DNA of 64,000 nucleotides from Mycobacterium noviomagense (lineage in GTDB: Bacteria; Actinomycetota; Actinomycetes; Mycobacteriales; Mycobacteriaceae): the NCBI RefSeq assembly GCF_010731635.1, contig NZ_AP022583.1, positions 3,720,001 to 3,784,000 of the forward strand, written 5' to 3'. How positions within the stretch are numbered: the first letter of the stretch is position 1; the number at the start of each line of letters is the position of its first letter. This document shows positions 6,481 to 21,623 of this stretch, in pieces. Both the position numbers and the translations under genes were made by a program. Below the pieces are notes generated by a model, which worked only from the letters and a program-made list of their open reading frames with translations, did no database searches and was not told where the DNA came from.

Positions 6481-6892
6481 TCCGGCTCGGTGGGGTGATG
6501 CTACGCGGTGGCGCCGGCAGTTTCGGTGGTTCCCGTATCAGGGTGCGGGGCGTGGCTCCGGTGAGAACTTGCCTTCCCAAACGAGTCCGCAGACGCGGAG
6601 AATCACTTGCACGTCGGTGGGATGCAGCTGGGCCGCACCAGGATCTTCATGGAGGGCTATGTCACCGACGGGACCCGTCTCTGAACCGTTCAGGCCTGGC
6701 ATCGACGGAGGGCGGCGCGTGTACGGCAGCTCCGCGGATTAGGTGATCCGCCGTTTACCAGATGCCACCGGTCACATTTGGTGGCCGAGAAGTGTCGATA
6801 GTCGTGAGGGTGTGGCAGCGGAACGGGCTGTCCTCGGCGATGCCGCACCCGCAGCTCGGCAGCGCACCGTCACCGAAATGGAGGCTCAGCCG

Positions 6893-7516: not shown

Positions 7517-7598
7517 CGGGGCGAGGCCCCCCACTGTTCGGTTACCGTCTGTTTGGGAAGATGGAGGTAGGACAATTAGCAGCTCAGAGCAGTCCCAA

Positions 7599-8051
7599 AT
7601 GCGCACGCGCATGTTCGCCCGAACGCTGGGCCCCTTCTTCGCGATCGTTCCCACGACTGTCGCGGTCCGCAGCTCGTATATGCAGACACTGTTTACCGAG
7701 TTCAAGGCCAACCCCATGTGGCCGTGGCTATATGGGGCCATTCTTCTGATGTTTGGCCTCGTCATTATTGCGTCTCACCAGTACTGGCGCACCCCCGCAG
7801 CGGTCATCGTGTCGGTGGTGGGCTGGATTATGGCGGCGCGTGGGGTGATTCTGCTGGCCGTTCCCCAGGCCTACAACGCAGCAGGCAACGCCGTCTATAG
7901 TTCGGGTGCGACTGCGGGGATTTGGGTGGTGGGCATCGGCTTGGGTCTGGCCGGGTTGTACCTGACTTACGTCGGCTGGAAGCCCGCGCCACCTGCGCCC
8001 GAAGCCAGGATCAGCGCAACCGACGATCGCTGGCAGGCCACGGGTGAATAA
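7599..8051 (+). CDS. Small integral membrane protein, unrecognised
   Basis: About 150 residues from ATG 7599 (MRTRMFARTLGPFF). Four hydrophobic stretches are visible: near residues 8-20, 46-62 (WLYGAILLMFGLVIIA), 68-88 and 107-125. A short charged tail follows. ATG 7611 is an alternative start. It lies 83 bp after the DUF1772-like gene on the same strand and ends 40 bp before the stop of a frameshifted USP gene on the other strand. I see no motif that gives a function. Confidence 0.6.
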   Translation: MRTRMFARTLGPFFAIVPTTVAVRSSYMQTLFTEFKANPMWPWLYGAILLMFGLVIIASHQYWRTPAAVIVSVVGWIMAARGVILLAVPQAYNAAGNAVYSSGATAGIWVVGIGLGLAGLYLTYVGWKPAPPAPEARISATDDRWQATGE

Positions 8052-8090
8052 ACGCGTCCACGCAGTGCTTCCTTCTCCCGCAGAGGACGC

Positions 8091-8906
8091 TTACCATCGC
8101 CTCCGGACTACCAGTACTGAACACCCGATAGCGCCGAGCAACGAGCGGTTGGGCGGGCCGACAATCCGGGCGAGCTCGCTTGACTCAGCGCTGCCTACAA
8201 CGGCCAGCTGAACTGGTTCCTCAACACCGGCTAAGAACTTGGCAGCGCCCGCTCGTGCGGCGGCAGGTCGGACATGCATCTCAGGGTAACGATTCACCCA
8301 GGCGCCGAGACGGCGATACATTTGCCGGTACGGTGTTTCTCCCAAGCCCCAGCGCCACTCCCAATGCCAATATGGGGGCATTGCGCAGGTGCGCTTCTCG
8401 AAAGCCGTGCTCGTCGTTGTCGGATGAATCTCCGACGACAACTGCAATCCAACCGTCATCTAACACTGCCGCGTGTTGGCCGGTGCGGATCACCGCTACG
8501 GGGCAGCAGGCTTTTTGGGACAGCGCAGCAGCTGTCGATCCAAGGACGTCTCGGCGAGATGTCCGATTCCAACGGACCCGACGCAAATCATTTCTGCATC
8601 ATGCGTTTCGTCGATTAGGGCTTTGTCGGGCGAACCAGGGACAACAGCTGTTTCTATGGTGATGGATCTTCCCCGGTCACGAACAGCGGCGGCCGCGGCG
8701 CGCAGCGCAGTCTCGGCGTATTCCAAGTCAATATCAACGATTTCGGTGCATGAGGCCGCATGACCGTTGTGACCGGCAGCCCAGCAGATGCAATGGAACC
8801 CCGCGGTCGTGGCCTCGACGACGGCCCATTTGGCCGTATTGATCGCCGCGATTGAACCGCCGATCCCGACCACAATCGACGGTGTTACCAGTGGTGCTTG
8901 GCCCAT
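8091..8906 (-). pseudogene. Universal stress protein (tandem USP), two frameshifts
   Basis: The gene starts well: AGGAGG lies 6 bp before ATG 8906 (MGQAPLVTPSIVVGIGGS). The N-terminal USP domain then breaks near 8542. There GHLAETSL must change frame to continue as GSTAAALSQKACCPVAVIRT, consistent with one lost G in TTGGATCG. A second shift near 8340 is needed to go from NAPILALGVALG to GETPYRQMYRRLGAWVNRYPEMH and on to the normal ending IGCSVLVVRRRW. Joined, the pieces give about 270 residues, a tandem USP of the Rv2005c/Rv2623 type. The ATP-site residue in VVGIDGS is also changed (VVGIGGS). Sequencing error could explain one shift but is less likely for two plus a changed motif. Confidence 0.8.
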
Positions 8907-8983
8907 AGCACCTCCTTGATTAGAGACCGAGGACGATCGGTCGTTCACTTCAGAAGGTAGTGGGATGCTTCGGACGTTCCGTA

Positions 8984-8997
8984 GGGCCGTTCGGCCT
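8984..8997. promoter_or_regulatory. DosR-like box 3
   Basis: GGGCCGTTCGGCCT matches the DosR core at 9 of 14 positions and is itself a near palindrome. It sits 78 bp upstream of the frameshifted USP start at 8906 in the spacer shared with the intact USP gene at 9148. Confidence 0.4.
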
Positions 8998-9078
8998 CGA
9001 TTCGCTGTGTGATGGGCTCCCGTCATCAATCAGCGCCAGAGAAGTTGGCGCGGCAAGGGCCCTACGACCGCAGGATTG

Positions 9079-9092
9079 AGGACTAATGCCTC
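9079..9092. promoter_or_regulatory. DosR-like box 4
   Basis: AGGACTAATGCCTC matches the DosR core at 10 of 14 positions. It lies 55 bp upstream of ATG 9148 of the intact tandem USP gene, a usual distance for DosR activation. Confidence 0.5.
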
Positions 9093-9147
9093 ACGACTGG
9101 CAACTCGTCCCCGGCCTAGCCTTCAGTTGTTGACGGAAGGAAGCGAA

Positions 9148-10038
9148 ATGTCGGCAGGGACCAAGAAATATGGCATCGTCGTCGGCGTCGATGGCTCAAG
9201 CGCATCGCATAGCGCCGTCTGTTGGGCGGCGCGTGACGCGGCCATGCGCCACATTCACTTGACCCTGGCCCATGTGGTGAGCCCCATTATCGCAGGGTGG
9301 TCACCGGTGCCGTTGCCGGCGGGAATTGCGGCATGGCAGGAAAACGAGGCGCGCAGAATCCTTGACCAGGCAGTGAAGATCGCTCAGGACACGACAACGA
9401 ACGACCGGGCGATCCCAATCAAGACCGAAATAATTTACGCGGAAACCATCCCGACGCTCGTCGAACTGTCAGAGGCTGCTGAGTTGATCGCGGTCGGCAG
9501 GTACGGACACGGAAAAATAGCACGCGGTTTGCTTGGTTCAGTCAGTTCCAGCCTTGTGCGGCGGGCGCATTGTCCGGTCGCGATCCTTCACGACGAAGAT
9601 GCATCGACGCCGCACCTTACACAAGCCCCGGTGTTGCTGGGAACCGATGGCTCGCCTGCCTCGAAGCAGGCTACGGCGATCGCCTTCGACGAAGCGTCGC
9701 GTCGCAGTGTCGACTTGGTTGCAGTGCATGCATGGAGTGACACCGAAATTTTCGAGCTCCCAGGCTTGGACTGGTCGGCGGTAAAAGCGGAAGAAGAGCG
9801 GAGTCTGGCCGAGGCACTGGCGGGTTGGCAAGAACGCTATCCCGATGTGACCGTGCACCGGCTACTCGTTTGTGACCGACCGGCTCGCGCATTAGTGGAA
9901 AAGTCCCAATCCGCTCAACTTGTCGTCCTCGGCAATCGCGGACGGGGTGGCTTCACCGGCGCGCTCTTGGGTTCGGTCAGCAACGCTGTCGTTCAAGCTG
10001 TCCGGGTGCCGGTAATTGTTGCGCGCCCGTCTTCCTAG
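9148..10038 (+). CDS. Tandem universal stress protein (Rv2623-like)
   Basis: The 296-residue protein contains two USP domains, about residues 8-150 and 160-295. Both keep the ATP-binding signature: VGRYGHGKIARGLLGSVSSSLVRRAHCPVAIL in the first and LGNRGRGGFTGALLGSVSNAVVQAVRVPVIV in the second. It closely resembles M. tuberculosis Rv2623 (TB31.7), a DosR-regulon ATP-binding protein that restrains growth; that function is inferred from the family. ATG 9148 follows a GGAAGGAAG ribosome-binding site, so the 24-residue upstream extension was rejected. DosR-like box 4 lies 55 bp upstream. It converges with the next USP gene, leaving 22 bp between the stops. Confidence 0.92.
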   Translation: MSAGTKKYGIVVGVDGSSASHSAVCWAARDAAMRHIHLTLAHVVSPIIAGWSPVPLPAGIAAWQENEARRILDQAVKIAQDTTTNDRAIPIKTEIIYAETIPTLVELSEAAELIAVGRYGHGKIARGLLGSVSSSLVRRAHCPVAILHDEDASTPHLTQAPVLLGTDGSPASKQATAIAFDEASRRSVDLVAVHAWSDTEIFELPGLDWSAVKAEEERSLAEALAGWQERYPDVTVHRLLVCDRPARALVEKSQSAQLVVLGNRGRGGFTGALLGSVSNAVVQAVRVPVIVARPSS

Positions 10039-10060
10039 ACATCTGGCGCTGCTGAGGCAT

Positions 10061-10918
10061 TCAGAAGTGCTGACCGCGGACGACGAGAACCGAGAAGTTC
10101 GCATCGTGCAACGTCTTCGACCTGGTGAGTTCAACCAGCTGCGCTACTTCATCACGGTTCTCGGCGCCCAAAACCACTGACTCAATTGACCCTTCGTGTT
10201 GTTCCACGTAATGGACGGACCGTTCGGTGTGCACAAAACACGTGTCGATGCCAGGATAGCGCCGAGTCCAGTTGACCAGATGCTCATCCAGTACGGCCAG
10301 CGCGCACCGACTTTGAATGCTAGTCGGATTGAACCGCATATCCGTCGAGCTGTCCCGATCCGTCATCACCACGCGCAGGCCAAGCTCTCGGAGAAGAGCT
10401 TCTTCCATGGCTTGCTGCAGGACTTCGTATTCGTCAGTGGAGTTGTGCAGGAGTACCACTAACCAGCCGCGCCGCGGTCGTACCGCAAACTCGGTGGCGG
10501 GAACGACAGCCACCGAGCAGTGCGCCGAGGTAGCCATGTTCGCCGCCAACGAATCAGACGGCCCGTGGGGTGCGGCCTTCGGGGACCCGACACACAGCAG
10601 GGCTGCGGACCGAGACGCCTCGGTCAAGGTGGTACCAGGATCGCCTTCCACGGTTTCCAATTGGATTCTGACCGATTCGTGTGTTGCTTTCACTGCCGCG
10701 TGCGCGTCTTGCAAGGCGGCTTGCGCTACCGAGAACTGGGCTTTGACGACGCTCGGCGTGAATGCCCGATTGCGATCGACGACGTAGAGCAACTCCAAGG
10801 CGGCATGGTGGCGAAGAGCCTCGTCAGCGCCCCACTGAGCTGCTGCCACCGCGGCCGGCGAGCCGTCGATTCCTACCACAACCGACTTCGGGGCGTAATC
10901 GGCAATCACATTGTTCAC
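10061..10918 (-). CDS. Universal stress protein, divergent tandem USP
   Basis: The 285-residue protein begins with a clear USP start (KSVVVGIDGSPAAVAAAQWGADEA). It ends in a second domain whose terminus SKTLHDANFSVLVVRG is typical. The first-domain ATP loop is degenerate (CVGSPKAAPHGPSDSLAANMATSAHCSVAVV lacks the G-x2-G-x9-G pattern), so nucleotide binding may be reduced or lost. It lies 64 bp downstream of the DUF1876 gene on the same strand with no terminator visible, so the two probably share a transcript. DosR control would then come from the boxes near 11.4 kb. Confidence 0.85.
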   Translation of the reverse strand: MNNVIADYAPKSVVVGIDGSPAAVAAAQWGADEALRHHAALELLYVVDRNRAFTPSVVKAQFSVAQAALQDAHAAVKATHESVRIQLETVEGDPGTTLTEASRSAALLCVGSPKAAPHGPSDSLAANMATSAHCSVAVVPATEFAVRPRRGWLVVLLHNSTDEYEVLQQAMEEALLRELGLRVVMTDRDSSTDMRFNPTSIQSRCALAVLDEHLVNWTRRYPGIDTCFVHTERSVHYVEQHEGSIESVVLGAENRDEVAQLVELTRSKTLHDANFSVLVVRGQHF

Positions 10919-10982
10919 CTTATTTTCTCATCCGACGAGGCGCTCGCTGCAGGGATGCTCAGTTGCTCCGGCCAATCGCCGC

Positions 10983-11267
10983 TCAGTGCACAAGCACCAC
11001 CGGTTCGTGGGTGGACGCGTGAATATCGGATGCTTTGGCGGCGAACAACTCATCTGCCAAGTTCGATAATGCGCGGGCGACGGCCAGTTCGTCGCCGATC
11101 TCGGGGATGTTGGGGTCACTGGGATTGACACGAGCGATACCAAGTCCGGTGAGGCGCTTGCCGCGCCAGCGTAGCCCGGCCCTGGCGCGGGTGCGCTGGC
11201 GATGCTCATCGATCGTAACCTCGACCGTCCAGTTCTTGGTGTGAGATGTCGAGTCGCTGTGTTGCAT
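10983..11267 (-). CDS. DUF1876 dormancy protein (Rv1738-like)
   Basis: The 94-residue protein shows the DUF1876 pattern: NWTVEVTIDEHRQRTRARAG, then GLGIARVNPSDPNIPEIGDELAVARALSNLADEL. It aligns by eye with M. tuberculosis Rv1738, one of the most hypoxia-induced DosR genes. The Rv1738 structure resembles ribosome hibernation factors, so a role in translational shutdown is a family-level inference. It is first in a leftward operon with the divergent USP gene. Two DosR-like palindromes lie 137 and 202 bp upstream, shared with the toroid-PEP synthase operon. Confidence 0.88.
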   Translation of the reverse strand: MQHSDSTSHTKNWTVEVTIDEHRQRTRARAGLRWRGKRLTGLGIARVNPSDPNIPEIGDELAVARALSNLADELFAAKASDIHASTHEPVVLVH

Positions 11268-11403
11268 CTGCCGGCCTCCGGAGTAGTCGCGACGCGGTCC
11301 GGAGTGCGTAACCCGGAACCGTTGCGAATTGCATTCGCCGATTCACGTCTCGATGATGCGTGCCCACGTCGCGGCCGATCAGAGGATCAAGTCACGACCT
11401 GTA

Positions 11404-11417
11404 TGGCCAAAAGTCAC
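11404..11417. promoter_or_regulatory. DosR-like box 5
   Basis: TGGCCAAAAGTCAC matches the DosR core at 10 of 14 positions. It sits in the 260-bp spacer between the divergent DUF1876 gene and the toroid protein gene. Confidence 0.45.
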
Positions 11418-11468
11418 AATGTCGCGGAAAGCTCGCACGCCAACTGTTACCAATTAGGCCATCCGTTA

Positions 11469-11482
11469 AGGCCTTTCGACCC
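11469..11482. promoter_or_regulatory. DosR-like box 6
   Basis: AGGCCTTTCGACCC matches the DosR core at 10 of 14 positions. It ends 45 bp before ATG 11528, well placed to drive the toroid-PEP synthase pair. Confidence 0.5.
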
Positions 11483-11527
11483 TACTGCACGAGGTGGCCT
11501 TGCAGTTTTGTGGCGGTGGAGGTGGTG

Positions 11528-12436
11528 ATGACTAACGCCGAAGCGCTGCTGATGGATCACCGCGACGGGACGCGATCGGACCGGCTGGATTGGGCGGCGG
11601 TCGGGTGGTACGTGCTGGGGCGGCGCACCCTTGAAGGCGGCTATAGCTTTTACCGCACACCAGAGTGGGCGGTGGAGGAGCCTAACGCGCCGGACACGTT
11701 GGCAGCCCTGGAGTCGCTCAGACTTCTAGGTATCGACATTCCCGCGCCTGCGCAGACCGGCGACTGGCTGCGATGCCTGCAGGAAGACGACGGCGGCTAC
11801 CCCACGTTGACCATCGGCTGGGCAACCCTTCGCTCGCTCTATGTGCTCGCCGTTGAGCCGGTCTGCTCGTCCGAGCGCTGGCTGCGGGGCTGGGTGCATG
11901 TGCTCGGTAGCCGAGGGCGATCCCGCGACTGGCGCGCCGCCATCGTCGACGCGTCGCACGTGCTTGAGCTGCTACATCTGCGGCACGGCACGCTGAGCGG
12001 ACCGGAGCACGCCAGCATGACCGCGCTCCTGCATACGGCCGGCGCGCCCAACGAGGGGTGGGCGCGCCCCGGTGCGGATCTCGAGACGACGGCGACCGCA
12101 GTGCGGCTAGCCCAACTGCTGAACCAGCGCTGGCATCCCGATCCCCAGCTGACGTCCTTTGTGTCTCGGTGTGAGGATCAGCAGCTCGGCTTTGGGCTGG
12201 CGCCCAACTCACGAGCGACGTCCGTTGGGGCGCTGTGGGGCGGGCTCGTGATTAGCCGGGTGCTCGGTCAGCGCGTGCGTTACCCAGATGCTGTCGGCCA
12301 GCAGCTTGCATTGCTGCAGCGCCCAGATGGCGGTTTGGGCGCGCGCCACCACGCGATTTCGACACTGCAAGCCACCTGGCGGGGGCTCCAGGCCGCACGG
12401 TTGCTCGACGGGCCGGAAGAGAAGGGACCATCATGA
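11528..12436 (+). CDS. Alpha/alpha-toroid (terpene cyclase / prenyltransferase-like) protein
   Basis: The 302-residue protein has repeated helical-hairpin signatures of the squalene cyclase/prenyltransferase toroid fold. The clearest are LRCLQEDDGGYPTLTIGWA near residues 76-94 and LALLQRPDGGLGARHHAI near 260-278. I see no DxDD acid motif of class II cyclases and no zinc-site pattern of protein prenyltransferases, so the reaction is unknown. ATG 11528 was chosen for GGAGG at 11518-11522; a longer frame from 11360 would cover both DosR-like boxes. The stop overlaps the start of the PEP synthase gene (ATGA at 12433-12436), implying translational coupling and stoichiometric expression. I know of no described pairing of this fold with PEP synthase. 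Confidence 0.75.
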   Translation: MTNAEALLMDHRDGTRSDRLDWAAVGWYVLGRRTLEGGYSFYRTPEWAVEEPNAPDTLAALESLRLLGIDIPAPAQTGDWLRCLQEDDGGYPTLTIGWATLRSLYVLAVEPVCSSERWLRGWVHVLGSRGRSRDWRAAIVDASHVLELLHLRHGTLSGPEHASMTALLHTAGAPNEGWARPGADLETTATAVRLAQLLNQRWHPDPQLTSFVSRCEDQQLGFGLAPNSRATSVGALWGGLVISRVLGQRVRYPDAVGQQLALLQRPDGGLGARHHAISTLQATWRGLQAARLLDGPEEKGPS

Positions 12437-14820
12437 ACGATCCAAAGTACGTACGGTTTTTCGAAGAGTTCGGCATCGAGGATGTCCCGCTCGTCGGCGG
12501 TAAGAACGCCTCGCTCGGTGAGATGTATCGCAAGCTGTCGAGCGAGGGAGTGCTCATACCGAACGGGTTCGCAATCACCGCTGACGCCTACCGCCACGCG
12601 CTTGAATCGGCGGGAGCCTGGGAGCGCCTGCGCGCCACCCTCGACGGGCTCGATCCAAGTGACGTAACCGACCTGGCACGCCGGGGCAAGCGCGCACGGG
12701 AGGTGGTATACGGTGCCGCACTGCCCGAAGACGTCACCGCAGAAGTCCTCGCCGGCTATCGGCGGCTGCAGGAGGAGTACGGGGAGGAAGTGAGCCTGGC
12801 GGTCCGCAGTTCGGCGACAGCGGAGGACCTACCCACAGCGAGCTTCGCCGGTCAGCAGGACACCTATCTGAACATCCGAGGTGAGGAAAGCCTGCTCGAT
12901 GCGTGCCAGCGCTGCTTCGCGAGCCTGTTCACCGACCGGGCCATCCACTACCGCATCGACAATGGGTTCGACCACTTCCGCGTTGCGCTGTCGATCGGTG
13001 TGCAGAAGATGGTGCGCTCAGACCTCGCTTCGGCGGGTGTGATGTTCTCGCTCGACACCGAATCGGGTTTCCGCGACGTCGTATTCATCTCCGGGGCCTA
13101 CGGCCTCGGGGAGAACGTTGTACAGGGCGCCGTCGACCCGGACGAATTCTATGTCCACAAACCGACTTTCGCGGCGGGTCACCGTGCCGTGCTGCGCCGC
13201 CTGCTGGGAGACAAGGCGGTAAAGATGGTCTTCGTCGAGGGCGAGACCAAACACACCACACGCAATATCCCCACACCGAAGGCCGATCGAGGGCACTTCT
13301 GTCTCAGTGACGATGATGTCCTCCAACTTGCTGACTACGCCATCAAGATCGAGCGCCACTACGGCCGGCCGATGGACATGGAGTGGGCGAAAGACGGTAG
13401 CGACGGGCGGATTTACGTCGTGCAGGCCCGGCCGGAGACCGTGGCCTCCCAGCGCCGGGTGAGCGTGCTGGAGAGCTACGTGCTCGCCGGAGCTGGCGAT
13501 GTGCTCGTCGAGGGCCGTGCGGTGGGCGAGAAAATCACGTCAGGCAACGCCCATCTGATCGAAAATCTCACCCACCTCGAGGAATTCAGGCCCGGCGAGG
13601 TGCTGGTGGCCGATACCACCACCCCGGACTGGGAACCGGTGATGAAAATCGCGGCCGCGCTCGTCACGAATCGCGGTGGGCGCACGTGCCATGCGGCAAT
13701 CGTTGCCCGCGAGCTCGGAATTCCCGCCGTGGTGGGTTCGGGCAATGCGACCACTCGGCTCACCGACGGCCAGACCGTCACCGTATCGTGCGCGGAAGGT
13801 GACACCGGGCGCGTCTATCGCGGAGAAGTTCCGTTTTCGGTCGAGTGCACGCAAATGACAGATCTGCCACGGCCGGCCACCCAAATCATGGTCAACCTGG
13901 GAAATCCTGACCTGGCGTTTAAGACCTCGTTTCTGCCGAATGACGGCGTGGGCCTGGCCCGCATGGAGTTCATCATCAGCGAATCGATCAAGTGCCACCC
14001 ACTCGCTCTCCTGCATCCCGACCGGGTCACCAACCCCGAGATACGCGTGCAGCTGGCACATCTCACCCACGGTTACCCCGACGGGGCAAGCTTCTTCGTG
14101 CAGCGGCTCTCCGAGGGGATCGGCACCATCGCCGCGGCCTTCTGGCCCAAACCTGTCGTGGTGCGGATGTCCGACTTCAAGACCAACGAGTACGCCAGTC
14201 TCATCGGCGGCTCGGACTTCGAACCGCGCGAGAACAATCCGATGCTCGGCTTCCGGGGAGCGTCCCGGTACGCCCATCCGGCCTATGCCGAGGGCTTCGC
14301 GCTGGAATGTGCTGCGATGAAGCGGGTGCGCGAGGAGATGGGGCTAACCAACGTCGTGCTGATGCTGCCATTCGTCCGCCGAGTCGCGGAGGCCGAGCTG
14401 GTGCTGGACCGGATGTCCGAACTCGGCCTGCGCCGCGGGGAGAACGGCCTGAAGATCTATGCAATGTGTGAGATTCCGAATAACGTTGTGTTGATTGACA
14501 AGTTCTCCAAGCACTTCGACGGCTTTTCCATTGGCTCCAACGATCTGACTCAGCTCACTCTGGGTGTAGATCGGGACAGTGAGATCGTCGCTTTCGACTT
14601 CGACGAGCGCGACGACGGAGTCAAGGAGATGATCCGATTGGCAGTCGACGGGTGCCGCCGCAACGGCCTTCATTCCGGGCTGTGTGGCCAGGCACCTTCG
14701 GATTATCCGGATATGGCCAAGTTCCTCGTCGAGATCGGCATCGACTCGATGAGCCTCAATCCGGACACTGTGCTCAAGACGCTAAAGCAGGTGCTGGAAC
14801 TAGAGCGACACCATCGGTAG
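12433..14820 (+). CDS. ppsA: Phosphoenolpyruvate synthase (pyruvate, water dikinase)
   Basis: The 795-residue enzyme makes PEP from pyruvate with ATP giving AMP and Pi, feeding gluconeogenesis. It has the normal three-part layout. The ATP-grasp domain spans about 10-335, with VGGKNASLGEM near 21-31 and VRSSATAEDLPTASFAGQQD at 124-143. The swivelling phosphohistidine domain has GGRTCHAAIVARELGIPAVVG, with the phosphoryl His at 420. The C-terminal PEP/pyruvate TIM barrel has SIGSNDLTQLTLGVDRDS and the catalytic Cys in GLCGQAPSD, about residue 751. All key residues are intact. It is coupled by a 4-base overlap to the toroid gene and so is probably under the same DosR-like control. That would place PEP formation within the hypoxia response, which is not its setting in M. 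tuberculosis as I know it. Confidence 0.93.
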   Translation: MNDPKYVRFFEEFGIEDVPLVGGKNASLGEMYRKLSSEGVLIPNGFAITADAYRHALESAGAWERLRATLDGLDPSDVTDLARRGKRAREVVYGAALPEDVTAEVLAGYRRLQEEYGEEVSLAVRSSATAEDLPTASFAGQQDTYLNIRGEESLLDACQRCFASLFTDRAIHYRIDNGFDHFRVALSIGVQKMVRSDLASAGVMFSLDTESGFRDVVFISGAYGLGENVVQGAVDPDEFYVHKPTFAAGHRAVLRRLLGDKAVKMVFVEGETKHTTRNIPTPKADRGHFCLSDDDVLQLADYAIKIERHYGRPMDMEWAKDGSDGRIYVVQARPETVASQRRVSVLESYVLAGAGDVLVEGRAVGEKITSGNAHLIENLTHLEEFRPGEVLVADTTTPDWEPVMKIAAALVTNRGGRTCHAAIVARELGIPAVVGSGNATTRLTDGQTVTVSCAEGDTGRVYRGEVPFSVECTQMTDLPRPATQIMVNLGNPDLAFKTSFLPNDGVGLARMEFIISESIKCHPLALLHPDRVTNPEIRVQLAHLTHGYPDGASFFVQRLSEGIGTIAAAFWPKPVVVRMSDFKTNEYASLIGGSDFEPRENNPMLGFRGASRYAHPAYAEGFALECAAMKRVREEMGLTNVVLMLPFVRRVAEAELVLDRMSELGLRRGENGLKIYAMCEIPNNVVLIDKFSKHFDGFSIGSNDLTQLTLGVDRDSEIVAFDFDERDDGVKEMIRLAVDGCRRNGLHSGLCGQAPSDYPDMAKFLVEIGIDSMSLNPDTVLKTLKQVLELERHHR

Positions 14821-14867: not shown

Positions 14868-15317
14868 TCAGTTTTCATTGGCGCGCCCGACAAACGCGTC
14901 GAGTTCAGAGGCGTCGCCGCCGGTGAGCCGGCGGTGCATCGCCCAGGCGATTCGGGCGGCTTGTACTTTCGCGGCTTCAGCGACTGGTCCGCAATACGTT
15001 TGGTCCACGGTGTTGTTCCATGTGGTCAGCCAGCGGACGAAGTGGTGGGCGGACAGTAGAGTTCGGCAGTGGACGGGTCGGTGAGCGTTCAGCGCGCTGC
15101 CGCGGTAGCGGCCGGCGCGAAAGAGCACTGTCTCCCAGAAGTCGCACATCACTGGGATGTGTGAATCCAAGCCCCGCGCCCGTAGCTCGGTGAACGGGTC
15201 GCCGAGGACATCGTCGTTGAGCACTCGACGGTAGAAGCGGCGCAGCAGCGCCTCCACGTCTGCGCGGCTTGCCAAATCCACGACGGTGTCCTCGAGCGGT
15301 CCCCGCACATCAGTCAT
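14868..15317 (-). CDS. Group III truncated haemoglobin
   Basis: The 149-residue globin has the group III (P) pattern: LLRRFYRRVLND at the B/E start, VMCDFWETVLFRAGRYRG, the likely proximal His in SALNAHRPVHC, then HHFVRWLTTWNNTVDQ. Group III globins bind O2 and NO and are tied to redox or NO stress in other bacteria; the function here is inferred. ATG 15317 overlaps the stop of the methyltransferase gene (ATGA), so the cupin, methyltransferase and globin are translated as one unit. M. tuberculosis has only group I and II truncated globins (glbN, glbO), so this is an accessory gene. Confidence 0.85.
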   Translation of the reverse strand: MTDVRGPLEDTVVDLASRADVEALLRRFYRRVLNDDVLGDPFTELRARGLDSHIPVMCDFWETVLFRAGRYRGSALNAHRPVHCRTLLSAHHFVRWLTTWNNTVDQTYCGPVAEAAKVQAARIAWAMHRRLTGGDASELDAFVGRANEN

Positions 15318-16198
15318 GACCGATCACCCTGTCGGGCCTCGACAACGCCCGGCGCGGAGACATGGCTTTGATCCGCGTGTTCCGTTGGCGATTTGCGAGC
15401 GACGATCGCGACGGCGGTCAACCGATCGCGGTGCCGGCGAAAGGTCCGCCGCATCTGAAGAACGCGCCGGCGGGCGTCGCGATGGGTGAGCACGTTCATG
15501 GTGAACCTCAGCGCTCGGAGCAGCCCCTCGTCAGCGATCAAACGTCGCGGCTGCAGCAGCGCCATGGGCGCGGTCGCGACGTGATCGACGACCAACCCGT
15601 GTTCAGCAAGTAGGTCCCGCCATTCGGCGACGGTGAGCGGGCGGGCGTTGACTTTGATTGCGCGGGCCAGGGATTGGCGGACGTCGGTCTTGACGTCATC
15701 GGCGATGGTGTCCGGCGTCAGCGCGAGTTCGTGGATCGCGTAGCGCCCACCCGGTCGCAGCAGCCGGGCTGCCTCGGCGACGATGGCATGCTTGGTCGCC
15801 TTGCCCTGCATGGTCAGCATCGCCTCACCGACCACGACGTCGCTGCTGGCATCGGGCAACCCCGTATCGGCGGCGTCGGCGACCCGGACGTCGCCGCGCC
15901 CGGCGCCACTTTTGTGCACGATGTCGCGAACCAGCGCGGCCGCGTCGGGATCTTGCTCGGCACCGAGATACGAGCGCGGACGCCGCGCAAGGATCTCAAT
16001 TGCGGTGCGGCCCAACCCTGGTGCCAACTCCAGCACATCGGCGTCGGTCACCGCGGCGCGGTCCAATAGCTCGCGGGTGAGCTCCGCACCCCCTGGGCGG
16101 AGCACCCGCTTGCCCAGGCGTGCCAGCAGCCAGTGGCCCGCCGCCGTGTCGTCGCCGCGGTTGGCTTTCGGCAGCGTTGTGCGCCGGATGCCGGGCAT
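15314..16198 (-). CDS. SAM-dependent class I methyltransferase
   Basis: The 294-residue protein contains the SAM-binding motif VLELAPGLGRTAIEIL (residues 52-67), an acidic loop (GAEQDPDAAALV) and the post-motif RLLRPGGRYAIHELAL typical of methyltransferase type 11 domains. The substrate is not evident. ATG 16198 was chosen over an upstream extension to 16495, because it overlaps the stop of the DUF2249-cupin gene (TGATG) and the extension is a low-complexity Arg-rich shadow. It lies between that gene and the globin gene with overlaps at both ends, so it works in the same pathway or stress response. Confidence 0.85.
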   Translation of the reverse strand: MPGIRRTTLPKANRGDDTAAGHWLLARLGKRVLRPGGAELTRELLDRAAVTDADVLELAPGLGRTAIEILARRPRSYLGAEQDPDAAALVRDIVHKSGAGRGDVRVADAADTGLPDASSDVVVGEAMLTMQGKATKHAIVAEAARLLRPGGRYAIHELALTPDTIADDVKTDVRQSLARAIKVNARPLTVAEWRDLLAEHGLVVDHVATAPMALLQPRRLIADEGLLRALRFTMNVLTHRDARRRVLQMRRTFRRHRDRLTAVAIVARKSPTEHADQSHVSAPGVVEARQGDRS

Positions 16199-16794
16199 CA
16201 AACTGCCTGTCGCACAGTGGGTGTCAGCGGCAGGATTTCCCGCTTCTTGTGAACGGTCAGGTAGCGCAACCCGTTCGGGCCGGCGCTGAATTGGCGTCGG
16301 GAACGCTTCGGCAGCCACAGCAGCGCGCCGGGCGCCAGCTCGATCTCGCCCTGCTCGGTGGTGAGCCGTCCGCTGCCGGCCAGCACATGAATCAGGACGT
16401 CGACGTCGGCTCCGGCGTGCGCGTCGATGCCGCCGCCCGGCGCCAGCGCGATGACGTTCGAATCCAGGTCGCGCTCGCCGACTTCCAGTTTCCACACCGC
16501 TCCGGTGTGGTCGGGCTCGGCGGCCAACTCTGCGGTGTTGGCCAGAACCCGGGGCAGTGGGGTAGTGGCCAGTTTGGTGATCCGGATATGCCAGACGGCA
16601 GGGCCCTTCTCGAGGTACTCCCAGCCGTAGCTGCCCGCGTGGTCGGCCTCGAACTCTTGGCGCAGATGCTTGGGGTCGTGGTTGTTGACTAGCACGAACG
16701 ACTCGCCGACGGCCAGCTTGGCGTAGGTGGCGAAAATCGTCGGGTGCTTGTCGGGCTTACGCAGCTGCCGGACGTCAAGTTCCTTGTCGGCCAT
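16198..16794 (-). CDS. DUF2249 domain - cupin fusion protein
   Basis: The 198-residue protein joins an N-terminal DUF2249 domain (ELDVRQLRKPDKHPTIFATY, NNHDPKHLRQEFEADHAGSYGWEYLEKGPAVWHIRITKL) to a C-terminal cupin barrel. The cupin has GGGIDAHAGADVDVLIHVLAGSGRL, then APGALLWLPKRSRRQF as its second box. DUF2249 proteins often occur beside NO-response, denitrification and hemerythrin genes, so NO or redox stress is the likely context. The start MADKELDVRQ (ATG 16794) was preferred because longer starts run across the operator into the divergent gene. It leads the leftward operon; the TTTACA-N10-TGTAAA palindrome lies 26-47 bp upstream. Confidence 0.82.
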   Translation of the reverse strand: MADKELDVRQLRKPDKHPTIFATYAKLAVGESFVLVNNHDPKHLRQEFEADHAGSYGWEYLEKGPAVWHIRITKLATTPLPRVLANTAELAAEPDHTGAVWKLEVGERDLDSNVIALAPGGGIDAHAGADVDVLIHVLAGSGRLTTEQGEIELAPGALLWLPKRSRRQFSAGPNGLRYLTVHKKREILPLTPTVRQAV

Positions 16795-16819
16795 GGAGTT
16801 TGCATACCTCGCACTAGTT

Positions 16820-16841
16820 TTTACAACACAGCTTGTGTAAA
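16820..16841. promoter_or_regulatory. Palindromic operator TTTACA-N10-TGTAAA
   Basis: Perfect 6-bp arms TTTACA and TGTAAA flank a 10-bp core that contains an inner ACACA-GCT-TGTGT near-palindrome. It fills most of the 56-bp spacer between the divergent DUF2249-cupin and ferredoxin genes and ends 9 bp before the fdxA ATG. A dimeric regulator bound here could control both operons. The winged-helix regulator encoded second in the rightward operon is the obvious candidate. Confidence 0.7.
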
Positions 16842-16850
16842 CTCTAGCGC

Positions 16851-17207
16851 ATGACGTACGTAATCGGGAAGCCATGTGTCGATGTGATGGACCGCTCATG
16901 CGTGGACGAGTGCCCTGTCGACTGCATCTACGAAGGCGGGCGGGCGCTGTACATCCATCCCGACGAATGCGTGGACTGCGGAGCCTGCGAGCCCGTCTGC
17001 CCGGTCGAGGCGATTTACTACGAGGACGACCTTCCAGACGAACTGCAGCCCTATCTTGCGGACAACGCGGCGTTCTTCACCGAAGTCCTGCCGGGCCGCG
17101 ACCAGCCGCTCGGCTCACCCGGTGGAGCCGCCAAGGTAGGCCCACTCGGCATCGACACCCCGCTGGTGGCTCGCCTGCCCAGAGCAGAAGACTCCGAGGG
17201 AGAGTGA
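16851..17207 (+). CDS. fdxA: 7Fe-8S ferredoxin FdxA
   Basis: The 118-residue ferredoxin begins MTYVIGKPCVDVMDRSCVDECPVDC and continues with CVDCGACEPVCPVEAIYYEDDLP. Its cysteine set fits one 3Fe-4S and one 4Fe-4S cluster. The C-terminus (NAAFFTEVLPGR, GSPGGAAKVGPLGIDTPLV) matches M. tuberculosis FdxA, Rv2007c, a DosR-regulon low-potential electron carrier. It is first in the rightward operon, and its stop overlaps the GTG of the regulator gene (GTGA). In M. tuberculosis fdxA sits next to otsB1; here it has a different neighbourhood. Confidence 0.93.
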   Translation: MTYVIGKPCVDVMDRSCVDECPVDCIYEGGRALYIHPDECVDCGACEPVCPVEAIYYEDDLPDELQPYLADNAAFFTEVLPGRDQPLGSPGGAAKVGPLGIDTPLVARLPRAEDSEGE

Positions 17208-17878
17208 GCATCGCCAGGCCAGCCGGGGAGTCCGCCGATCGCCGCCGCGCCGTGCTGCAGGTGCTGAAGGCGGCGAAGGCTCCGATGAGCATCGTCGCGA
17301 TCGCCGAGCAACTCGAGGTGCACCCCAACACGGTCCGCTTCCATCTGGACGGCCTGGTCCGTGACGGTCGTGTCGAACGCGTTGCACCAGACCACCGAAG
17401 GCCGGGGCGGCCTCCGCTGATGTTCCGGGCCGTCCGGCAGATGGATCGCGGCGGCGAGCGCCGCTATGAGTTGCTGGCCGAGATCCTCACCCTGGGTTTC
17501 GGCGACGACGAGCGCGATCCCAGCGCCAAGGCGCTGGCTGCTGGTCGCGCGTGGGGCCAGCGGCTGGAGTCGAATTCGGCTGGCACGGGCAGTGCGGGGA
17601 CGCAGGAATCGATCGACCACCTGGTCGGTCTGCTCGATGAGCTCGGCTTTGCACCTGAGCACCGCCAGTCCGACGGTCAACACCAGATCGGCCTGCGCCA
17701 CTGCCCGTTTCTCGAACTGGCCGAAGCCCGACGCAGCGTGGTCTGCCCGATACACCTCGGAATCATGCAAGGAGCAATGGAAACCGTGGACGCGCCGGTG
17801 ACCGTGGACCGGCTGGACGCCTTCGTCGAACCCGACCTGTGCGTGGCCCACCTCAGTCTCGACGGGGCGGCCAAGTGA
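17204..17878 (+). CDS. Winged-helix regulator with C-x13-C motif (probable Fe-S or redox sensor)
   Basis: The 224-residue protein has an N-terminal ArsR/MarR-like winged helix (APMSIVAIAEQLEVHPNTVRFHLDGLVRDGRVERV, then RPGRPPLMFR). Its C-terminal domain contains HCPFLELAEARRSVVCPIHLG and a third Cys (EPDLC) 31 residues later. Cysteine-bearing regulators of this layout, such as SufR, hold Fe-S clusters; cluster binding here is inference. GTG 17204 overlaps the fdxA stop and its own stop overlaps the next GTG. It probably binds the TTTACA-N10-TGTAAA site upstream of fdxA. A regulator with the same Cys spacing, now split by an IS element, lies at the far end of the cluster. Confidence 0.8.
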   Translation: MSIARPAGESADRRRAVLQVLKAAKAPMSIVAIAEQLEVHPNTVRFHLDGLVRDGRVERVAPDHRRPGRPPLMFRAVRQMDRGGERRYELLAEILTLGFGDDERDPSAKALAAGRAWGQRLESNSAGTGSAGTQESIDHLVGLLDELGFAPEHRQSDGQHQIGLRHCPFLELAEARRSVVCPIHLGIMQGAMETVDAPVTVDRLDAFVEPDLCVAHLSLDGAAK

Positions 17879-18300
17879 GCGTCGGGTCGGCGATCGCCGT
17901 CGGCGTCGCGTTTGTGTGGCTCGGCATGGTGCTGGCCATCTCGTTTCTGGAAGCGCCGCTCAAATTCCGGGCGCCCAACGTGACGACGCAGATCGGGCTC
18001 GGCATCGGCCGGCTGGTCTTCCGGGCACTCAACGCCGTCGAAGTGGTTTTCGCGATCGTCACGTTGGCCGTGGTCGTCGTGAGCCGGCCGCCGCTCGGGG
18101 TGATCGTGGCGTTCGTGGTCGCGTGGGCAACGCTGGTAGCGCAACTGGGCGCGGTGCGGCCCTTCCTGAACCGGCGATCGGACAAGGTGCTGGCCGGCCT
18201 CGACGCGCCCCGGTCTCGCGGTCATTACGCCTATGTCGGTTTGGAGGTGGTCAAGGTGATCGCATTGGTGACGGCGGGCGGTCTTCTACTATCCAGCTGA
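17875..18300 (+). CDS. Four-segment membrane protein
   Basis: The 141-residue protein has hydrophobic stretches near residues 3-24, 50-68, 72-95 and 118-138. There is a conserved-looking polar loop after the first segment (LEAPLKFRAPNVTTQIGLGIGRLVF). I do not recognise the family with confidence. GTG 17875 overlaps the regulator stop (GTGA). Its position suggests a membrane component of the same stress response, perhaps handling a redox ligand or transport step; no residue proves this. Confidence 0.75.
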   Translation: MSVGSAIAVGVAFVWLGMVLAISFLEAPLKFRAPNVTTQIGLGIGRLVFRALNAVEVVFAIVTLAVVVVSRPPLGVIVAFVVAWATLVAQLGAVRPFLNRRSDKVLAGLDAPRSRGHYAYVGLEVVKVIALVTAGGLLLSS

Positions 18301-18335
18301 GGCCCAGATCACCGACCCCTCGACCGAAGGACATC

Positions 18336-18680
18336 ATGGAGACCATTTCGCTGACCAACCTCGCTGCCGAAAAGCTGGCCGAGGCGCGCGAGACGAAAAG
18401 TGGGCGAGCCGCCCATACCCTTCACGGCGGGCACACCCATGAACTGCGGCAGACCGTGATGGCGTTGCTTGCCGGACGTGAGCTGGCTGAGCACGACAGC
18501 CCCGGCCAGGCGTCACTGCAGGTGCTGCAGGGCCATGTGCACCTGACCGCGGGCGACGACTCGTGGGAGGGCACGGCCGGCGACTACGTCGTGATCCCGC
18601 CGCAGCGGCATTCCCTGCAGGCCATCGAGGACTCGGTGATCATGCTGACCGTCTTCAAGAGCCTTTCTTCGGCGACATAG
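18336..18680 (+). CDS. Single-domain cupin protein
   Basis: The 114-residue protein begins METISLTNLAAEKLAEARE. It has a cupin barrel: HGGHTHELRQTVMALLAGRELAEHDSPGQASLQVLQGHVHLTAGDDSWEG, then AGDYVVIPPQRHSLQA. Two His-rich boxes suggest a bound metal. Small cupins of this kind are often induced by NO or oxidative stress, but no reaction can be assigned. It follows the membrane protein by 35 bp and precedes the nitronate monooxygenase by 3 bp, so it is in the same operon. It is the second cupin of the module. Confidence 0.85.
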   Translation: METISLTNLAAEKLAEARETKSGRAAHTLHGGHTHELRQTVMALLAGRELAEHDSPGQASLQVLQGHVHLTAGDDSWEGTAGDYVVIPPQRHSLQAIEDSVIMLTVFKSLSSAT

Positions 18681-18683
18681 CGG

Positions 18684-19625
18684 GTGCTCTCGACACCGTG
18701 GTCGCGCGGCTTCGGCCTGCGGGTACCGATCGTCAACGCGCCGATGGGTGGTGCGGCCGGTGGCCGGCTCGCTGCCGCCGTGAGTGCGGCCGGTGGCTTG
18801 GGCATGCTAGGGATGGGCAGTACCGGGTCCACGAAGCTGCTCCACGCCGAGTTGCCGCACGTGCGAGGCACTTTCGGAATTGGCTTGGTGCACTGGGTAA
18901 TTCGCAACGAACCTGGGCTGCTCGACGCTGCGCTTGCTGCCCGGCCGGCGCTGCTGTCGGTCAGCTTCGCCGACGAATGGTCGTGGGTTGAGCGCGCCCA
19001 TTATGCGGGAGTCGCAACTGCCACACAGGTATACGACAGTCTTGGCGCTGTCCGGGCGCAAGACGCCGGTGTCGATGTCCTGGTGGCGCGGGGAGCAGAA
19101 GGCGGCGGCCACGGAGAGGCCAAGATCGCCACGCTGCCGCTGCTCGACGCCGTCTTGACCGTCGTCTCGGTGCCGGTGCTGGCGGCCGGTGGAATTGCGT
19201 CACCGCGAAGCCTCGCCGCCGTATTGGCTGCCGGTGCCAGCGGAGCGTGGTTGGGAACATGCTTGACGGCCTGCTCGGAGGCGCTGACCACCGACGGTGC
19301 CCGCCAGGCCCTCATCGCTGCGCGCGAGACCGACACCACGACCACCCGGGTATTCGATGTCGGCCGCGGATTGCCCTGGCCGGACCGGTTCCCGTCGCGC
19401 GTACTGGCCAACGACTTCGTTGCGCGGTGGGCGGGCCGGGAGGATGAGCTGGCCGCCGATCCCGACGCGCGCGCCGAGCTGGCCGCCGCGACCGCGGCCG
19501 ACGACCCGCGAATCGCTCCGGTCGACGCCGGTCAGGGCGTCGGGATGGTCACGTCGGTGGAACCGGCGGGCGTTGTCATCGAGCGGCTGTGCGCTGGTGC
19601 GGAACGCCTGCTGGCGCAGTGGTAG
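18684..19625 (+). CDS. Nitronate monooxygenase (2-nitropropane dioxygenase-like)
   Basis: The 313-residue flavoprotein has the NMO barrel pattern: VPIVNAPMGGAAGGRLAAAVSAAGGLGMLGMG, then DVLVARGAEGGGHGE for the FMN phosphate region and VPVLAAGGIASPRSLAAVLAAGASGAWLGT. The enzyme oxidises toxic alkyl nitronates using FMN and O2. Its presence beside a group III globin, a DUF2249 protein and a ferredoxin supports a nitro or NO stress theme. GTG 18684 is 4 bases after the cupin stop. The gene converges with the IS-split regulator, leaving 4 bp. Confidence 0.87.
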   Translation: MLSTPWSRGFGLRVPIVNAPMGGAAGGRLAAAVSAAGGLGMLGMGSTGSTKLLHAELPHVRGTFGIGLVHWVIRNEPGLLDAALAARPALLSVSFADEWSWVERAHYAGVATATQVYDSLGAVRAQDAGVDVLVARGAEGGGHGEAKIATLPLLDAVLTVVSVPVLAAGGIASPRSLAAVLAAGASGAWLGTCLTACSEALTTDGARQALIAARETDTTTTRVFDVGRGLPWPDRFPSRVLANDFVARWAGREDELAADPDARAELAAATAADDPRIAPVDAGQGVGMVTSVEPAGVVIERLCAGAERLLAQW

Positions 19626-19816
19626 ACGGTTACTTTGACGATTTGCGGCCTGCGGTGAGCACCACGCAACAGCCCGGAGGGCGCGGATCCAGCCGCGCGT
19701 GCGGGCGATGCGGCCGCAGCGCATCGGCGATGCCGCTGATCAACGCGTGGTTCATCGTGCAGGCAAGCTCGCGCTGCTCCTCGGCCAGCGCGTGAAACGG
19801 GCAGTTGGCGAGATAC

Positions 19817-19820
19817 ACCT
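19817..19820. repeat. Target-site duplication ACCT, left copy
   Basis: ACCT directly abuts the left end of the IS element and is repeated at 21057-21060. Deleting one copy with the element restores the host reading frame. Confidence 0.9.
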
Positions 19821-19860
19821 TGGCCTGACCCCGGTTGGTTGGTCCACGGTGTGTGAGAGT
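19821..19860 (+). repeat. IS left inverted repeat
   Basis: About 40 bp from TGGCCTGACC to GTGTGAGAGT. It pairs imperfectly with 21018-21056, with matches concentrated in GACCCC, TTGGTCCA and GTGAGAGT. Confidence 0.88.
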
Positions 19861-19900
19861 CTGGCGGCCCAGGTTTTGGGCAGGAAGGCTCGACAAGATC

Positions 19901-20182
19901 ATGGCGACAAGAAAGCGGCACACTCCCGAGCAGATTGTGCGCAAGCTGATGACGGCCGATCGGCTGTTGGCCGAGGGCAAGGACACCGCGGCGGTGTGCC
20001 GCGACCTGGGTGTCTCCGAGGCCACGTATCACCGCTGGCGCAATCAATTCGGCGGGCTCAAGGCTGAGGACGCCAAGCGGCTCAAGGACCTCGAACGCGA
20101 GAACACCACCCTCAAACGGCTGCTGGCCGACGCCGAATTGGAGAAGGCCGCACTCAAGGAGATCGCCAAGGGAAACTTCTAG
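19901..20182 (+). CDS. IS3-family transposase OrfA
   Basis: The 93-residue protein has the OrfA helix-turn-helix (RKRHTPEQIVRKLMTADRLL, then VCRDLGVSEATYHRWRNQFGG). A leucine-zipper-like tail follows (AKRLKDLERENTTLKRLLADAELEKAALKEIAKGN). It recognises the element ends and partners OrfB. The last codons contain the slippery heptamer GGGAAAC, after which a -1 shift joins the OrfB frame. Confidence 0.93.
   Translation: MATRKRHTPEQIVRKLMTADRLLAEGKDTAAVCRDLGVSEATYHRWRNQFGGLKAEDAKRLKDLERENTTLKRLLADAELEKAALKEIAKGNF
20170..20176 (+). other. -1 programmed frameshift site GGGAAAC
   Basis: G GGA AAC is in the correct phase at the end of orfA, two codons before its TAG. Slipping back one base continues as LLGPERRRAAVDHLQHVLGVSERF, the expected OrfB N-terminus, giving the OrfAB fusion transposase. 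Confidence 0.8.
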
Positions 20183-21014
20183 GCCCGGAACGCCGGCGGG
20201 CGGCCGTTGACCATCTCCAGCACGTGCTGGGAGTCAGTGAGCGCTTCGCCTGCCGCGTGGCCGGGCAACACCGCTCCACTCAACGACACGAACCAGCGTC
20301 GACCACGCCGGCTGATCCGGATGCCGCGTTGCGGGCCTGGATGCGCGCTTGGGCCAAGGAGCATCCGCGCCGGGGCTTTCGGCCCGCCTACCACGATGCG
20401 CGCGACGAAGGCTGGCCGGTCAATCACAAGAAATTCCAACGCCTGTGGCGCGAGGAGGGCTGCGGGTGCCGCAGCGGCGACGCCGCAAACGCCACGGCAC
20501 CTCAACGGCCCCGCAAGTCAGCGCAGATGCGCCCGATCAGGTGTGGGCCGCCGATTTCCAGTTCGACGTCACCACCGACGGGCGCCCAATCAAGACCGTG
20601 TCGATCATCGACGAACACACCCGCGAATGCCTCGGCGACATGGTCGAACGCAACATCACCGGCGAAGACCTGATCTGCGAGCTCGAACGGATCGCCGCCC
20701 ACCGAGGCACCTATCCGGCAGTCCTGCGCTGCGACAACGGACCCGAATTCGCCTGCGCGGCAATGGCTAACTGGGCCGCAAACCACATCGGCCTGTACTT
20801 CATCCCACCCGGCGAACCATGGCGCAACGGCTACGTCGAATCCTTCCACTCCCGGATCCGCGACGAATGCCTCAACATCAACAGCTTCTGGTCACTGGCG
20901 CATGCCCGCGTGGTCATCAGCGACTGGAAACACGAATACAACCACCACCGGCGCCACTCCGCCCTCGGCTACCAACCCCCGGCTCGCTACGCTGCCAGCT
21001 GTACCCACCGATGA
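20176..21014 (+). pseudogene. IS3-family transposase OrfB, one-base frameshift
   Basis: The first part (LGVSERFACRVAGQHRS ... NHKKFQRLWREEG) is in the -1 frame relative to orfA. At about 20458 it must lose phase to continue as LRVPQRRRRKRHGTSTAPQVSADAPDQVWAADFQFD, consistent with one G lost from a GGGG run. The second part carries the rve integrase core with DDE residues: Asp in WAADFQFD, Asp in RCDNGPEF and Glu in NGYVESFHSRIRDECLN. The ending HRRHSALGYQPPARYAA is typical. Unless the missing G is a sequencing error, the element cannot move without a helper. Confidence 0.85.
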
Positions 21015-21017
21015 ACG

Positions 21018-21056
21018 ACTCTCACCCAACATGGACCAATCCATGGGGTCCGGTCA
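21018..21056 (-). repeat. IS right inverted repeat
   Basis: Read on the minus strand this starts TGACCGGACCCC and ends GGGTGAGAGT, pairing with 19821-19860. Confidence 0.88.
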
Positions 21057-21060
21057 ACCT
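21057..21060. repeat. Target-site duplication ACCT, right copy
   Basis: The second copy of ACCT abuts the right IS end. Confidence 0.9.
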
Positions 21061-21623
21061 CACCGGCGCCATACCGCGGCTCGTAGCCGTGTTCGCGCAG
21101 TATCGCCACAGCCACCTCGAGCGCTGACTTCGCGTTGGCGGGTGCGCGCCCGCGGTCGGTTACGGCGGACGTTCCGATGCCGCGGCCGAAGTCCCGAGCA
21201 ACCTGATTGAGCACGTCCACGACCGACGCACCGCTGGCTGCCGACTGGGCGATGGCCTTGGCCATCAGGCGGCCGGCCAACTCGTAGTCGCGCGGGGGAA
21301 GGCTGACCGCGATATCCCGGTCGGCTCGCCGATACAGCTTCGACGGGCGTCCCGCACCCGGCCCGGACCGTCCCGTCAGCCGCACATAGTCGCATTCCAG
21401 CAGCGCCTCGTCCTGCAGCCGGTCGAGGTGGAACTTCGCCTGGTGGCGTGCGACGCCTACCGCGTCGGCCGCTTGGTCACGGCTCACCGGTTCCGGTTGC
21501 GAGCAGACGAACCGGTAGAGCTGGTGGCGCACCGGGTCGGCGAGGGCGCCGATCCCGGCGGCATCGCGTTGCAAGGGGTCCCGCGAGGAATCCATCACCG
21601 TCCATTTCTAACAGACAAAACCC

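Follow-up and report, generated by a model that had tools for sequence, protein, structure and literature searches.

A divergent ferredoxin, DUF2249-cupin and globin gene module with its own operator and a predicted nitric oxide-responsive regulator in Actinomycetota

Locus and gene content

Eight genes at positions 14868–19625 of a 64,000-nucleotide stretch of Mycobacterium noviomagense DNA (contig NZ_AP022583.1; hereafter the window) form two operons that diverge from a 56-bp spacer. These genes, which we call the module, are a real stress unit whose make-up varies among many relatives. The spacer holds an operator that recurs together with a cysteine-bearing regulator encoded in the module itself, and nitric oxide (NO) is the predicted signal. 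The window comes from a 4.78-Mb single-contig genome that is mycobacterial by its relatives. Families were assigned with Pfam and NCBIfam profiles, and folds by matching AlphaFold models to the PDB with Foldseek. Alignments A1 and A2 comprise 19 and 25 chosen sequences; A3 and A4 comprise 25/28 and 31/38 non-redundant sequences. The module contains the following features:

14868–15317, minus strand: group III truncated hemoglobin (glb3), last gene of the leftward operon (AlphaFold model with PDB match 2ig3; relatives so named in PLSDB)
15314–16201, minus strand: S-adenosylmethionine-dependent methyltransferase (Methyltransf_11, E 1.1e-10)
16198–16794, minus strand: DUF2249-cupin protein, first gene of the leftward operon (DUF2249 at residues 5–74, E 9.7e-27; alignment A1)
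16818–16843: operator TTTTTACAACACAGCTTGTGTAAACT, near-palindromic, overlapping the likely rightward -10 element (spacer alignment and genome scans)
16838–16843, plus strand: likely -10 element TAAACT, 7 nt before the fdxA ATG (putative promoter role, from conserved spacing)
16851–17207, plus strand: fdxA, actinobacterial FdxA ferredoxin (NF045480, FdxA_Actino, 178.4 bits, passing the cut-off of 125)
17204–17878, plus strand: ArnR/SufR-type winged-helix regulator with Cys167, Cys181, Cys213 and His184 (HTH_20, E 2.3e-09; alignment A2)
17875–18300, plus strand: four-helix membrane protein (AlphaFold pLDDT 93.6, four long helices)
18336–18680, plus strand: small cupin (Cupin_2, E 6e-06, 26.3 bits, slightly below the cut-off of 27.2)
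18684–19625, plus strand: nitronate monooxygenase (NMO)-family flavoprotein (NMO, E 2.3e-35)

The genes are tightly packed. Four of the six joins overlap: globin with methyltransferase by 4 bp, methyltransferase with DUF2249-cupin by 1 or 4 bp depending on the start codon (TTG at 16201 or, equally likely, ATG at 16198), and fdxA with regulator and regulator with membrane protein by 4 bp each. Gaps of 35 bp and 3 bp separate membrane protein from cupin and cupin from NMO, and the spacer between the operons runs from 16795 to 16850. An earlier note on this DNA had described this layout, with overlaps of 1–4 bases at most joins, and its coordinates and gene order were correct. Its view that the genes are made together as one regulated unit is supported by the shared operator and by recurrence in relatives, described below.

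The C-terminal half of the DUF2249-cupin has weak cupin matches in Pfam, and it is in this half that solved structures matched, all of them cupin-like or uncharacterized chains. For the regulator, the winged-helix part alone matched a solved structure. The membrane protein matched no Pfam family above cut-off, and its model found no PDB match at E ≤ 0.001 in Foldseek.

A shared operator in the spacer

On the evidence of the DNA sequence, the operator in the spacer ties the parts of the module together. Aligned spacers gave the consensus TAGTTTYTACAA-N6/7-TTGTRTAAACTCTAG, that is, TTTYTACAA-N6/7-TTGTRTAAACT. The site is present in 35 of 36 spacers, a set made up only of loci where both flanking starts matched; its right arm is degenerate in five, and one spacer holds two sites. 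Of the 21 fdxA-type spacers whose right arm is exact, 20 have TAAACT 7 nt ahead of the fdxA ATG. Since the likely -10 element lies inside the right arm and this close to the ATG, fdxA is predicted to be leaderless and the site to be a blocking one.

The 4.78-Mb genome holds a single operator at up to 3 mismatches, besides its own reverse reading (control, 0). Scanning with the 7-base spacer version gave no matches (control, 10), because the window's operator has a spacer of 6. A scan of 200 whole genomes placed the exact core, TACAA-N6/7-TTGTRTAAACT, at 16 sites in 15 genomes (control, 0), and all 16 precede module genes or operons holding the module's regulator or membrane protein. Eleven adjoin DUF2249 and two precede fdxA-regulator; another is flanked by fdxA-regulator and ctaD, another by the globin and membrane protein genes, and the last lies ahead of a hemerythrin gene. 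Genome G088 has sites on two contigs, one between the globin and membrane protein genes and the other between fdxA-regulator and ctaD. The hemerythrin site (genome G154, locus L203) lies 12 bp before the gene (E 2.4e-14); next in the operon come a small ferredoxin, the regulator and the membrane protein, and the stretch has neither DUF2249 nor fdxA. Elsewhere an extra gene for cytochrome aa3 subunit I diverges from fdxA across the operator (L028, L096, L097, L135, L140, L143 and L211). With 16 of 16 hits at such genes, the operator is specific enough for the regulon to be sought by sequence alone in other actinobacterial genomes.

The operator tracks the regulator. We compared 80 named loci, the best 80 of 528 relatives, some of which stop at contig edges, with parts lost there counted as misses. 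A site occurs anywhere in the stretch in 50 of 55 loci with the regulator versus 8 of 25 without it, and in none of the 80 reversed sequences. Upstream of the DUF2249-cupin gene, at ≤5 of 20 mismatches, 42 of the 46 loci whose divergent regulator lies within 1.5 kb have a site (2/46 in the best of 10 shuffles), as do 17 of the other 34 (shuffles, 1/34). This association is our main evidence that the regulator binds the operator, and we consider it very probable that an iron-sulfur (Fe-S) repressor acts there. A further set of 95 sites comes from loci picked for DUF2249 or globin and includes duplicate genomes (at least L023/L121, L024/L119, L026/L136, L028/L137, L032/L185 and L038/L194); the unbiased count is that of the 200-genome scan.

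Recurrence and core of the module

The divergent arrangement recurs in relatives and is thus not a product of chance. DUF2249-cupin matches were found in 37 of 200 genomes of the order and 44 of 148 of the genus, many of the weak ones resembling other DUF2249 proteins. Near good matches the same core returns, DUF2249-cupin facing fdxA, regulator and membrane protein, to which mycobacteria add the cupin and NMO. A divergent fdxA or regulator lies ≤700 bp from DUF2249-cupin in 46 of the 80 loci. Within 6 kb of DUF2249-cupin, at identity thresholds that we set, the regulator is found in 56 of 80 loci, fdxA in 40, the cupin in 36, the membrane protein in 35, the methyltransferase in 17, NMO in 15 (all Mycobacteriaceae), an extra ctaD in 11, regX (a second regulator of the same superfamily) in 11 and the globin in 2. 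Of the 21 loci from Mycobacteriaceae, 18 have the regulator, 18 fdxA, 18 the membrane protein, 16 the cupin, 15 NMO, 14 the methyltransferase and 2 the globin.

These counts redraw the core. The earlier note had centered it on a trio of DUF2249-cupin, methyltransferase and globin, and had treated the module as mycobacterial. Linkage across genomes held for DUF2249-cupin with fdxA, regulator and membrane protein; the trio is rejected as a conserved unit by the methyltransferase and globin counts. Methyltransferase and group III globin are facultative members. Module relatives are spread over many Actinomycetota, and among the hosts represented in the best 80 of 528 are Nocardia, Saccharopolyspora, Pseudonocardia, Nonomuraea, Gordonia and Brevibacterium.

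The same counts bear on whether the module serves to degrade or detoxify nitroalkanes, or some other small compound that the regulator senses. NMO and two cupins would suit such a cluster, as would the flavin-dependent hydroxylases near some distant relatives, but NMO is present in just 15 of 80 loci, and it is the regulator, the ferredoxin, the DUF2249-cupin and the membrane protein that stay constant. We regard a catabolic role as highly improbable.

An ArnR-like regulator

The regulator carries nearly the cysteine layout of ArnR. The earlier note had called it a Cys-motif, C-x13-C regulator; it is more specific than a generic protein of that sort. Cys167, Cys181 and Cys213 (C-x13-C-x31-C) and the CxxH histidine His184 are invariant in all 25 aligned regulators, four of which are regC, another regulator of the same family. 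Of 88 regulators counted, 86 retain C-x13-C, the two exceptions having x12 and x14 (the nar-linked L190 regulator, introduced below, is counted once among the 88), and 15 regX proteins lack the C..CxxH pattern. The nearest named relative, from M. heckeshornense, is 83% identical.

ArnR of Corynebacterium glutamicum binds a [4Fe-4S] cluster and has Cys179, Cys193, Cys223 and a conserved His; it represses hmp and nar, its [4Fe-4S] form binding the hmp promoter and nitrosylation by NO releasing the DNA (PMC12343034). The module's regulator shares the winged-helix N-terminus, three C-terminal cysteines, C-x13-C, a nearby conserved His and a globin-type target. It differs in its second cysteine interval (x31 versus x29 in ArnR, placing the last Cys two residues further on) and in being encoded inside its own divergon. 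ArnR targets flavohemoglobin hmp and narKGHJI; the module instead holds FdxA, DUF2249-cupin, NMO and group III globin. Since the genome's only such operator fronts the module and not hmp or narKGHJI, we call the regulator an ArnR-like relative, not ArnR. NsrR follows the same logic, being an Fe-S repressor released by NO with globin targets (as told in PMC12343034), but it belongs to the Rrf2 family, whereas the module's regulator is HTH_20; no Rrf2 match appeared among the Pfam hits.

SufR offers a second comparison. On this account the regulator would gauge Fe-S status under iron starvation or oxidative cluster loss, the module would supply spare electron carriers and copies of metal enzymes, and NO would be one trigger among several. 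SufR, known from M. tuberculosis and cyanobacteria, belongs to the same superfamily. M. tuberculosis SufR, Rv1460, has C203, C216 and C244 and likewise needs three cysteines for function (PMC6034842), and FdxA together with the aconitase and OsmC genes of relatives would suit Fe-S or peroxide stress. However, Rv1460 has C-x12-C versus C-x13-C here, and the regulator failed the SufR profile (TIGR02702, SufR_cyano; a weak 20.5 bits versus a cut-off of 178.8). The eight genes include no suf gene, although no search for suf was made among wider neighbors. The DUF2249 domain, the globin and the hemerythrin suggest nitrogen oxides. In sequence, the regulator shares 65 of 190 residues (34%) with one near narHJI (by Pfam) in a 2.67-Mb genome (L190), called ArnR-like from its gene setting and standing in for C. 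glutamicum ArnR, and 50 of 162 with a SufR adjoining a SufB-like sequence (read by eye); these figures place it clearly nearer to neither. We judge SufR-like sensing unlikely.

Group III globin

The globin is predicted to adopt a group III truncated hemoglobin fold. Its AlphaFold model (pLDDT 89.8) best matched Campylobacter group III truncated hemoglobin 2ig3 in the PDB (Foldseek E 1.4e-3, TM 0.70/0.81); the match by sequence alone was weak (E 0.31), and no Pfam globin profile matched. In PLSDB, Rhodococcus plasmid relatives that are 61–63% identical bear the name group III truncated hemoglobin. Alignment A3 shows almost no variation at His92, the putative proximal heme ligand.

The globin has been recruited in different ways and is not a fixed member of the module. 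In the window it is joined to the operator through two overlapping gene joins; in genome G209 its coordinates put it in the rightward operon, immediately downstream of the membrane protein gene. Among 30 genus loci (those returned for 46 genomes with a globin match), 20 are tied to a family regulator or its operator: nine have the operator at 0–1 mismatch ≤1.5 kb upstream, the window's own is joined to it as just described, and in 10 the globin directly follows regC. Eight of these 10 carry a different palindrome, TATTATT-N4-AATAATA, at 0–1 mismatch, which suggests that regC and this palindrome are a second regulator/operator pair of the family serving the same globin. In L081–L086, L090 and L094, where regC precedes the globin and has its own palindrome, several loci also have a divergent nitroreductase.

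A globin of this kind raises the question of DosR. The globin could belong to the DosR hypoxia/NO dormancy regulon, its position here reflecting a local fusion of two stress clusters. The window's left neighbors are of dormancy type (an Acg-family flavin mononucleotide (FMN) protein and universal stress proteins). In M. avium, the group III globin MAV_4008 is DosR dependent and is listed beside a universal stress gene, and three other genes of that regulon are NO-induced (PMC11876180). The globin kind is shared, but the module shows no DosR-box signal: in a coarse consensus scan, the window has 2 matches versus 2.27 expected, and in none of the 30 globin loci did a box clearly beat the one shuffle made per locus. 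The globin overlaps the methyltransferase by 4 bp here and elsewhere stands under the module's operator. We consider it improbable that the globin is a DosR gene placed here by fusion. DosR control of this locus was rejected, no box standing above chance in that scan.

DUF2249 and the nitrogen-oxide theme

The company kept by DUF2249 points to nitrogen oxides. The DUF2249 literature that we found concerns nitrate respiration or denitrification (PMC11218638, PMC6282519). All four haloarchaeal DUF2249 genes go up under denitrification, and the domain is linked with hemerythrin-like proteins and heme-copper oxidases (PMC11218638), the kinds of gene represented by hemerythrin and ctaD near modules of relatives. 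The DUF2249 of Thermus plasmids is 51% identical over residues 5–79 (75 residues) and is encoded beside nitrate reductase and a protoglobin. Thermus DrpA/DrpB and the haloarchaeal proteins share with the module the domain and a nitrogen-oxide setting (PMC11218638, PMC6282519). Unlike them, the module's DUF2249 is fused to a cupin, paired with FdxA and an Fe-S-type regulator, and found in Actinomycetota.

Additional genes extend this theme. Some modules have extra aconitase or pyruvate dehydrogenase E1 genes nearby, and NO metabolism is reported for a purified chimeric mycobacterial bcc-aa3 oxidase (PMC7697965). Together, the extra genes would fit a regulon that both clears NO and supplies substitutes for NO-sensitive enzymes.

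Plasmid-borne versions

Versions of the module occur on plasmids. Nocardioides pNOCA01, typed as conjugative, carries DUF2249 divergent from fdxA-regulator-aceE-membrane protein-cupin, with ctaD nearby. Its spacer holds a 0-mismatch operator, and its regulator and membrane protein are 52% and 57% identical to the window's. On Rhodococcus pRZP2, a regulator 37% identical to the window's diverges from fdxA-ctaD-unknown-group III globin. A Streptomyces plasmid (L214) has fdxA divergent from DUF2249, with an Rrf2-family regulator and a group III truncated hemoglobin 4–5 kb away; its stretch holds no operator of this kind.

A proposed NO-responsive regulon

We favor, with some reserve, the reading that the module is an ArnR-like, NO-derepressed regulon and a local, self-regulated stress divergon. 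A regulator dimer, with a probable [4Fe-4S] cluster on Cys167, Cys181, Cys213 and perhaps His184, would occupy the spacer's palindrome, TTTTTACAA-N6-TTGTGTAAACT. Overlapping the likely -10 element of a leaderless fdxA promoter, it would block both divergent operons. NO would nitrosylate the cluster and release the dimer, turning both operons on. The group III globin could then act as an NO-binding, oxidizing or reducing heme with FdxA as its electron source, and the NMO-family flavoprotein could oxidize nitronates or nitro compounds. DUF2249-cupin, methyltransferase and membrane protein may be accessory sensor, repair or respiratory-chain parts.

Several observations weigh against this proposal. 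The three-cysteine pattern is also compatible with SufR-like Fe-S sensing, and a tree with one ArnR-like sequence (L190, entered twice) and one SufR did not split the two (support 0.24). The nar-linked L190 regulator has C-x14-C, and allowing up to 5 mismatches no such operator turned up in its 19.9-kb stretch; pRZP2 (L216) has none at up to 4. Of the 11 genomes of the order in which DUF2249-cupin is matched over nearly its full length, 8 have the exact core and three lack it. Ten of the 30 globin loci have neither the operator nor an adjacent family regulator (five with a nitroreductase neighbor, two with a universal-stress neighbor, and L046 with a regC-like gene slightly further off), and the DosR dependence of MAV_4008 belongs here too. 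OsmC lies near some modules, behind operator sites with 2–3 mismatches. No flavohemoglobin, NO reductase or nitrite reductase was found in the 20 neighbor proteins scanned, a small fraction of neighbors that fall into 176 unlabeled clusters, mostly outside that scan. For NO itself, hemerythrin under the operator argues in favor, and pRZP2 without an operator and the C-x14-C of L190 argue against. NO is still, in our estimate, the probable main signal of the regulon, and the NO and Fe-S stress theme of the earlier note remains the best available.

A broader proposal is possible, and we hold it tentatively. The module and its relatives, on chromosomes and plasmids, may represent an undescribed NO-response regulon of Actinomycetota under an ArnR-like repressor with its own operator. 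It would remove NO through group III globin and hemerythrin, replace NO-sensitive machinery (ferredoxin, cytochrome aa3 subunit I, and the nearby aconitase and pyruvate dehydrogenase) and link FdxA functionally with group III globin; DUF2249-cupin would be a new protein of NO handling or oxidase repair. NO-responsive Fe-S repressor regulons are known; new here are the gene set and operator, which have no description in the open-licence literature searched. The earlier note had known of no described mycobacterial system with this set, and none turned up there, by titles or abstract openings. If the proposal is right, some mycobacteria have an additional NO switch besides DosR and SufR, and the partner set gives testable roles to DUF2249, the family-less membrane protein and group III globins.

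Neighboring genes

Dormancy-type genes lie to the left of the globin (window positions 3626–14820), with phosphoenolpyruvate synthase directly adjoining it. On the right, a second regulator of the same superfamily, regX, is interrupted by an insertion sequence. The features are:

3626–4606: Acg-family FMN protein
9076–10038 and 10061–10918: universal stress proteins
19630–19829, minus strand: 3' piece of regX (the CPF..C part), on the far side of the insertion sequence (translation; pieces not joined)
19830–21048: IS3-type element inside regX (HTH_Tnp_1 and rve domains, 32-nt imperfect terminal repeats)
21049–21598, minus strand: 5' piece of regX (HTH_20)

In relatives, regX is a single open frame (representative, 240 amino acids).

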